Source: Acidobacteriaceae bacterium
GTDB taxonomy: Bacteria; Acidobacteriota; Terriglobia; Terriglobales; Acidobacteriaceae
NCBI GenBank assembly: GCA_003160215.1
Contig: PLQW01000126.1
Location: 1 to 35,002, forward strand
Direction: 5' to 3'
Length of the DNA: 35,002 bases
The notes below the pieces were generated by a model. It saw only the letters and a program-made list of their open reading frames with translations, ran no database searches and had not been told where the DNA came from. The position numbers and the translations under genes are program-made. Below are positions 7,763 to 8,860 of the stretch, piece after piece (the first letter of the stretch is position 1; each line of letters opens with the position of its first letter).

Positions 7763-7792
7763 TACTGAATGAGTGAGCGTCCCCATTATGTT

Positions 7793-8623
7793 TCATTTCT
7801 TGCTCTTGGATTTTGCTTGAGCGTGGTGCTTTATATCTGGACAGGCTCCTTGCTCAACCCATCTAGCGCCGGAGTCGTTGATTTGCAGAATAGCTATCGG
7901 CTGACCGATTCTTTTGGGTTTCCGGGATTCAAGTTGAATTGCTCCAACAAGAAGGCTGCGCAAGAAATCGACGTCGGGAAGATTTTCTACCTCAGGATGT
8001 TGACTGTCGTAGATCGGGACGTTTTCAGATGCTCCAATCCTTTGATAAACAGCTGGACTCCCGAAAGTACCAACGTCAACCACCTTATTGTCGATAGCCA
8101 TATTTCCAGAAGAATCTTCGGTGTATTGCACAATTGCTACAGTGAATGGAGGGCCGCCAGAAAAGATCACCTCGAAGTGAGCGGGCTGTCCCGATTGGTT
8201 CATGAGAGCATACGTTGCTGGTTCATGCGCTTTGATATGAGTCCAAGCACGCCGTACTTCAGGCAGGGCGGTTTTCTCAAAGGAGTTGGCTCGTTCGATA
8301 AGCGTTCCCTTTCCCTTGCAGGCGTGAGCAGCCAAGGGAACCAAGTCGTAATGAATGCTCTGAATATCCCGCACTCCGACAATAGAGAAGAAGCAAGTAT
8401 CGGTTCCCTGCATTATCTTGCAACCCTTCACGGAAGGTGGGGAACCTCCAGGTTTAAGCAAGAGTCCATCAGCAGCAACAACGACCCCATCCCCGGAGCA
8501 CGCGGTCAGGACAAGAGTGGCTCTGCAAGTGGAAGTCCCAGCGATAAGCAACAGGAAGAGCCAGAGTATATGCGAAGAAACGACACAGGCCCTCAGCGGT
8601 TCTGGCGAACGCGAACCGGCCAA
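7793..8623 (-). CDS. Exported proteasome/HslV-like Ntn-hydrolase (predicted)
   Basis: Not a family I can name, but it has a striking layout. A signal peptide with core ILWLFLLLIAGTST ends in CRA, and the next residue is threonine: TLVLTACSGDGVVVAADG. Counting that Thr as 1, Asp is at 17, and lysines at 31 and 34 sit in VKGCKI. Proteasome beta subunits and HslV use Thr1, Asp17 and Lys33. Later segments also fit the fold: FFSIVGVRD, FEVIFSGGPPFTVAIVQY, DVGTFGSPAVYQRI and a final helix-strand unit ending IAILQINDSGARWV. Signal peptidase cleavage would expose the nucleophile, which would make this a periplasmic or secreted amidohydrolase or peptidase. I prefer the TTG at 8623, which gives a signal peptide of normal length with GAGG upstream; a GTG at 8686 adds 21 residues. 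A long open frame on the other strand (7769-8788) is rejected as its shadow. Confidence 0.7.
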   Translation of the reverse strand: MAGSRSPEPLRACVVSSHILWLFLLLIAGTSTCRATLVLTACSGDGVVVAADGLLLKPGGSPPSVKGCKIMQGTDTCFFSIVGVRDIQSIHYDLVPLAAHACKGKGTLIERANSFEKTALPEVRRAWTHIKAHEPATYALMNQSGQPAHFEVIFSGGPPFTVAIVQYTEDSSGNMAIDNKVVDVGTFGSPAVYQRIGASENVPIYDSQHPEVENLPDVDFLRSLLVGAIQLESRKPKRIGQPIAILQINDSGARWVEQGACPDIKHHAQAKSKSKK

Positions 8624-8723
8624 CTCGTTGATGACCTCAGAACTACCGACATTGATGTCAGCTATGACGGGAAGGTCTGGTTTCACTTGTTTGGGCCGAA
8701 ATGCATTAATGAGTTACCACGAA

Positions 8724-8860
8724 TCACGTTAATAGTTCCGCAATCGACCAAACATGATCGGTCAGGCCCGATTCCATCGCGGGAGTGACGCGCAGTGTTT
8801 GGTGTACGCGACAGAAGTTGTAGAAGGCGATATACAGCGTAACAGCCGCCTTGAGATAGA
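8724..8860 (-). pseudogene. C-terminal remnant of a DDE transposase
   Basis: On the minus strand about 45 codons read YLKAAVTLYIAFYNFCRVHQ, then TLRVTPAMESGLTDHV and WSIAELLT with a stop at 8726-8724. The YNFxRxHxTLRxTPAM pattern is typical of the C-terminal end of a group of bacterial DDE transposases/integrases. No start or catalytic core is present: upstream the sequence runs into a CTCCGTG repeat. It lies between the exported hydrolase and the oxidase gene and marks an old insertion. Confidence 0.7.

Follow-up and report, generated by a model that had tools for sequence, protein, structure and literature searches.

The window analyzed here, a 35,002-nucleotide stretch of contig PLQW01000126.1 from an Acidobacteriaceae bacterium, carries a gene whose product is probably an exported proteasome-like Ntn hydrolase of a new subfamily. 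In this subfamily, removal of the signal peptide is predicted to free Thr1. Computational analysis established the fold, the conservation of the active site, the placement of the signal sequence and the pattern of cysteines in this subfamily. The newness of the subfamily relative to the 22 proteasome-like families described earlier (PMC8665760) was judged from the text of that paper only, and the subfamily may overlap with one of the 22. In the literature searched, no proteasome-like protein was described as exported, and Thr1 was made by removal of Met or of a propeptide. If the conclusion is true, this acidobacterial subfamily uses the export step to create its active site, which shifts the enzyme family to the periplasm or the cell's surroundings and gives a straightforward way to probe the capabilities of proteasome-like subunits in the absence of ATP and unfoldases.

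Gene structure and genomic context

The sequence-only reading had proposed a Sec signal peptide ending in CRA, followed by a mature chain starting with Thr, and translation of the minus strand bore this out. A predicted signal peptide with the end ...LLLIAGTSTCRA leads straight into the mature chain, which begins TLVLTACSGDGVVVAAD; the N-terminus of this chain reads T1-L-V-L-T-A-C-S-G-D-G-V-V-V-A-A-D17, so that Asp is located at exactly position 17, as claimed, with lysines at 31 and 34. The start codon of the gene is uncertain, being TTG at 8623, which gives 7793..8623, or alternatively GTG at 8686; the frame is also open to 8713. The features of the gene are listed in the table.

Table. Predicted features of the gene encoding the exported proteasome-like protein (positions in the window)
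Feature	Position	Strand	Evidence
Gene for exported proteasome-like protein	7793..8623	-	Open frame and translation, codon-position pattern, family conservation
Sec signal peptide (predicted; length 35 residues from TTG 8623), end ...LLLIAGTSTCRA	8519..8623	-	Hydropathy, family equivalents, -3/-1 rule
Mature enzyme (predicted; 241 residues) with a proteasome-beta-like Ntn fold	7796..8518	-	AlphaFold2, Foldseek, VIA-align
Thr1 codon, predicted nucleophile	8516..8518	-	Invariant (n=15); aligned to Thr1 of BPH and HslV
Asp17 codon	8468..8470	-	41/41 members
Cys33 codon, family-specific, adjoins catalytic Lys	8420..8422	-	40/41 members; absent in HslV/BPH controls
Lys34 codon, equivalent to proteasome Lys33	8417..8419	-	41/41 members; aligned to HslV Lys33 region
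Gly48 codon, equivalent to oxyanion-hole Gly47	8375..8377	-	Invariant (n=15); 36/41 members
Cys226 codon, C-terminal Cys, predicted disulfide partner of Cys33	7841..7843	-	39/41 members; co-occurs with Cys33

A long open frame of 339 codons is located antisense to this gene (7769-8788, plus strand), and it is also open in the paralogue encoded in the same genome (L006), which is 53% identical to the window protein. Differences between the two paralogues at codon positions 1, 2 and 3 of the minus frame numbered 114, 70 and 175, a pattern which marks the minus frame, and not the antisense one, as coding. The plus-strand frame, which had no Pfam match, was therefore rejected as a true gene and is probably a side effect of the coding sequence on the opposite strand.

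The gene is flanked by the gene for cytochrome oxidase subunit III (cox3) upstream and by uvrA downstream, and not by hslU. Conserved neighbors were sought at 21 family loci, and none were found except in a few close relatives. Because there is no conserved neighborhood, no partner gene, in particular no unfoldase, is suggested, and a conserved operon partner was rejected.

Conservation of the active site

The only invariant columns in an alignment of 15 members were Thr1, Asp17, Lys34 (equivalent to Lys33 of the proteasome) and Gly48 (equivalent to Gly47). When the alignment was extended to 41 members, Asp17 and the Lys were each found in all 41 and the Gly47 equivalent in 36, and column 1 was Thr in 40 (with one gap). 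The mature starts were placed by their distance to Asp17, at the Thr nearest 16 residues before it, and a tally of chains that start with Thr is therefore not independent of this placement. A measure that is independent of start placement is the fixed spacing, with the nucleophile exactly at D-16 in 50 of 56 ORFs. The sequence-only reading had asked whether homologues keep the Thr, the Asp and a Lys, and they do; both of the lysines pointed out in the window protein, Lys31 and Lys34, are present, and it is Lys34, not Lys31, that is the conserved catalytic one. The equivalent of Ser129, after a conserved Gly, was variable among the 41 members rather than kept, indicating that the auxiliary residues differ.

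Profile searches also related the family to proteasome-like proteins. The best match of the 15-row profile was the bacterial proteasome homologue BPH (5ovu, E 1.6e-4); a profile match to HslV (E 2.3e-4) was obtained as well, with Thr1 aligned to Thr1 in both cases, and a comparison with acidobacterial HslV by hhalign gave E 1.1e-5 and a probability of 82%. The window protein had no match to PF00227 (Proteasome subunit), and 12 of the 41 members matched it only weakly (best E 2.8e-4); the distant member L010 scored 12.6 bits, below the curated gathering cut-off of 22.4. The family is not named in the Pfam and NCBIfam libraries searched, and since its members fall below the cut-offs of both, they are probably annotated as hypothetical everywhere. 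In the broad sense in which proteasome-like families have been grouped (PMC8665760), membership is indicated by the fold, by Thr1/Ser1-Asp17-Lys33-Gly47 and by sequence relationship, all of which were found in this family.

Predicted fold

Structure prediction agreed with the Ntn alpha-beta-beta-alpha fold that had been proposed for the protein. The AlphaFold2 models of two members, the mature chain of the window protein (pLDDT 89.2, pTM 0.87) and L010 with the 41-row alignment (pLDDT 91.8, pTM 0.88), both displayed the Ntn sandwich of the proteasome and HslV. With the window model, the best Foldseek match was a proteasome subunit (E 7.7e-9), and Anbu was among the matches. In VIA-align, the window model gave Z 17.8 and an rmsd of 2.8 over 170 aligned residues, with model residues 1-225 placed on beta subunit residues 1-190, and the L010 model gave Z 19.4 and an rmsd of 2.5 over 173 residues; in both models the match to proteasome beta subunits starts at residue 1 and spans nearly the full length. 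Each model has a short helix H1 (residues 59-67 in the window model and 58-65 in L010) and a long H2, and ring contacts may therefore differ from those of the proteasome.

The same fold could also serve another chemistry. The exported protein might be a transferase or ligase of the connectase kind, or an amidase acting on small amides, with cell-wall or acyl-amide substrates, which kept the Thr1 chemistry and whose substrates are not general proteins. We regard this as a genuine possibility, though not as the likely explanation. Connectase, itself a homologue of the proteasome, is a monomer with ligase activity (PMC8665760), the conserved catalytic residues are compatible with transferase, ligase or amidase chemistry, the short H1 leaves room for different ring contacts, and no neighbor gene points to a substrate. 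Nothing in the data speaks positively for transfer activity, however, and neither model displays the two-helix insertion that connectase has between S3 and S4, there being no helices between residues 21 and 42 of the window model or in that region of L010.

Predicted export signal and proposed exposure of Thr1

Signal peptides were called by hydropathy and the -3/-1 rule. The hydrophobic core of the signal peptide in the window protein has a mean hydropathy of 3.17 over 10 residues, and a strong hydrophobic stretch just before Thr1 was detected in 48 of 56 non-redundant family ORFs versus none of 20 HslV/BPH controls. When the -3/-1 signal-peptidase rule was slid along 52 members, it was satisfied at Thr1 in 41 (79%) and at other offsets in at most 38%. 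The residue at -1 was Ala in 33 of the 52, Gly in 15 and Gln in 3, so that Thr or Ser was preceded by one of these in 51, whereas Thr1 or Ser1 of the controls was preceded by Met or by sequences ending Arg-Ser, Arg-Gly or His-Ser. The location of Thr1 directly behind a signal peptide is thus a trait of the family and not a peculiarity of one gene.

Roughly one member in three carries Gly or Gln rather than Ala at -1. In several of the Gly-Thr members (L016, RAGAQ|VEAG|T; L086, L084, L085; L077), a plausible signal-peptidase site is located a few residues earlier, which suggests that in these members the signal peptide is followed by a short propeptide that would be removed at Gly|Thr. In the three members with Gln at -1, signal peptidase might leave one extra residue.

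Alternatively, the hydrophobic N-terminus might stay uncut as a membrane anchor or serve as a lipoprotein signal, in which case Thr1 would never be free and the protein would be a catalytically dead periplasmic domain. The uncertain start codon and a Cys that both the window protein and its paralogue have at position -3 are in keeping with this, but the residues before that Cys (TST and PNV) form no lipobox by the usual consensus, and a Cys at -3 is not found family-wide; a lipoprotein was rejected for want of a lipobox. An anchor is likewise improbable, given the Ala, Gly or Gln before Thr/Ser in 51 of 52 members and the peak of the -3/-1 rule at Thr1, and conservation of Asp17, Lys and Gly47 is not expected without Thr1 chemistry. 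An unrelated secreted protein that resembles the N-terminus of HslV by chance is refuted by the computed fold and the family conservation, since, although the window protein as a single query had no Pfam, NCBIfam or PDB sequence match, the family as a whole keeps Thr1/Asp17/Lys/Gly47, its profile matches BPH and HslV, and the models align from residue 1 with Z of 17.8-19.4.

The observation of the sequence-only reading, a proteasome-type active site after a signal peptide, was therefore confirmed, and its interpretation as an exported Ntn enzyme with Thr1 behind the signal peptide was supported. Two outcomes that had been named beforehand as speaking against it, a fold other than Ntn and a lack of conservation of Thr, Asp and Lys, were both looked for, and neither was found.

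Cysteines and predicted disulfides

The Cys just before the catalytic Lys was present in 40 of the 41 aligned members and the C-terminal Cys in 39, and both were absent from the HslV and BPH controls. Across the family and the controls, the Cys before Lys co-occurred with the C-terminal Cys (45:0 vs 6:25) and with the signal sequence (47:1 vs 4:24), counts that are inflated by shared descent, as the tree gives only one well-supported independent pair. A small number of relatives lack a signal sequence; among them, L014 (M-T), L035 and L070 are also without the Cys beside Lys. A second pair of cysteines was jointly present or jointly absent in 38 of 41 members, and the number of cysteines was even in 40 of 47 mature chains; the window protein has five, an odd number. 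This pattern fits that expected for disulfides formed in an oxidizing compartment outside the cytoplasm.

Proposed maturation and activity

From these features we infer cleavage by signal peptidase, a disulfide bond and hydrolase activity of the exported protein. The preprotein would cross the inner membrane via the Sec route, and signal peptidase I would cut after CRA, the same step freeing the alpha-amino group of Thr1. Thr1 would then be the catalytic nucleophile, activated by Lys34 and Asp17, with Gly48 forming the oxyanion hole. Folding would take place outside the cytoplasm, where a Cys33-Cys226 disulfide probably ties the strand of the catalytic Lys to the C-terminus, and the enzyme, in the periplasm or in the extracellular space, would hydrolyze amide bonds, those of peptides or others, presumably with no ATP-driven unfoldase involved.

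A more speculative and rather unlikely extension is that the subunits assemble outside the cytoplasm into an ATP-independent, disulfide-stabilized proteasome-like particle, whose active sites would be switched on by signal peptidase or, in the Gly-Thr members, by removal of the signal peptide followed by self-cleavage of the propeptide. Against the main reading, an active exported hydrolase, stand findings on related proteins. Single proteasome subunits were reported to be inactive outside the assembled complex (PMC8665760). In vitro, neither BPH nor Anbu gave measurable activity, even though BPH binds epoxomicin (PMC5777263), and because of this inactivity of BPH, activity of the exported family is not to be assumed.

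Comparison with known proteasome-like and Ntn proteins

The family is similar to HslV (MEROPS T1 family) in its fold, in Thr1/Asp17/Lys33/Gly47 and in a first strand ending A-[AG]-D. The HslV controls, however, have neither the signal sequence nor the Cys beside Lys that the exported gene has, and HslV is encoded by a separate gene and forms a separate clade. BPH (the bacterial or betaproteobacteria proteasome homologue), the top profile match, also has no known unfoldase partner (PMC5777263). BPH exposes Thr1 or Ser1 via removal of Met in the cytosol, and outside Betaproteobacteria it has Ser1 (PMC5777263), a pattern matched by most of the BPH-like controls found in this study. The acidobacterial BPH start with M-S or M-T and form a separate clade with a support of 100, whereas Thr1 of the exported family follows a signal sequence. 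Beta subunits of the 20S proteasome and Anbu share the near full-length structural match from residue 1 (Z 17-19), but beta subunits uncover Thr1 through loss of a propeptide, with no export, and differ from the models in the short H1 and long H2 seen here.

Fuchs, Alva and Lupas (2021) described 22 new proteasome-like families, which are sparse orphan genes without conserved context, and stated that propeptides are confined to the beta subunits of the proteasome and to HslV (PMC8665760). The exported family has the same fold and catalytic set as these families, and its genes are likewise sparse orphans without conserved context. The text of that paper makes no mention of secretion, export, periplasm, signal peptides or Acidobacteria (PMC8665760).

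Penicillin G acylase and PvdQ are examples of periplasmic Ntn hydrolases, and they demonstrate that a nucleophile at the N-terminus can function outside the cytoplasm (PMC5474475). These enzymes belong to other Ntn families, and unlike in the family studied here, their nucleophile is freed by an autocatalytic cut between the alpha and beta parts. Some Gram-negative penicillin V acylases expose Cys1 through removal of the signal peptide, which would give the proposed maturation route a precedent in another Ntn family.

Distribution and family members

About 50 divergent relatives were collected from Acidobacteriota genomes. A search with the single protein found relatives in 5 of 100 near-relative genomes, and a six-row profile at E 1e-3 found them in 12 of 396 genomes across the phylum. 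The 15-row profile at E 1e-5 matched in 44 of 399 genomes of the class to which the window belongs and in 11 of 193 of another class; in a third class, at E 1e-3, 34 of 162 genomes matched, most of the weak matches resembling HslV or BPH. Scanning of genome contigs with a three-member alignment gave only five Acidobacteriota loci. The distribution of the gene within these Acidobacteriota searches is patchy. No match to the family was found in the phage, plasmid and viral collections searched, and structure matches in BFVD were weaker than those in the PDB, and on these grounds a phage or plasmid origin was rejected.

The genome from which the window derives has two intact copies of the family, and an ordinary HslV is encoded separately in it. 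A further gene (L100:1435-2334, G000:C149) encodes another proteasome homologue, 299 residues long, with Met-Thr and a PF00227 match (E 4e-8), which is neither HslV nor a member of the exported family; added to HslV and the exported copies, it brings the proteasome-like genes of this genome to at least four. The same genome contains a C-terminal remnant, PEGVGPPMSILKIDKLGRQKWISPGQC (L021, G000:C270:1005-1112), which looks like the decayed relic of a third gene for a member of the exported family.

Some members diverge from the common layout. Long C-terminal extensions are present in L069, L073 and L076 (also in L072 and L097), and these extra regions had no Pfam match; the tail motif SDFRR is common to L069 and L076. 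In the divergent member L097:1360-2676, Ser replaces Thr1 right after the signal sequence, and Arg-Lys is located in place of Cys-Lys.
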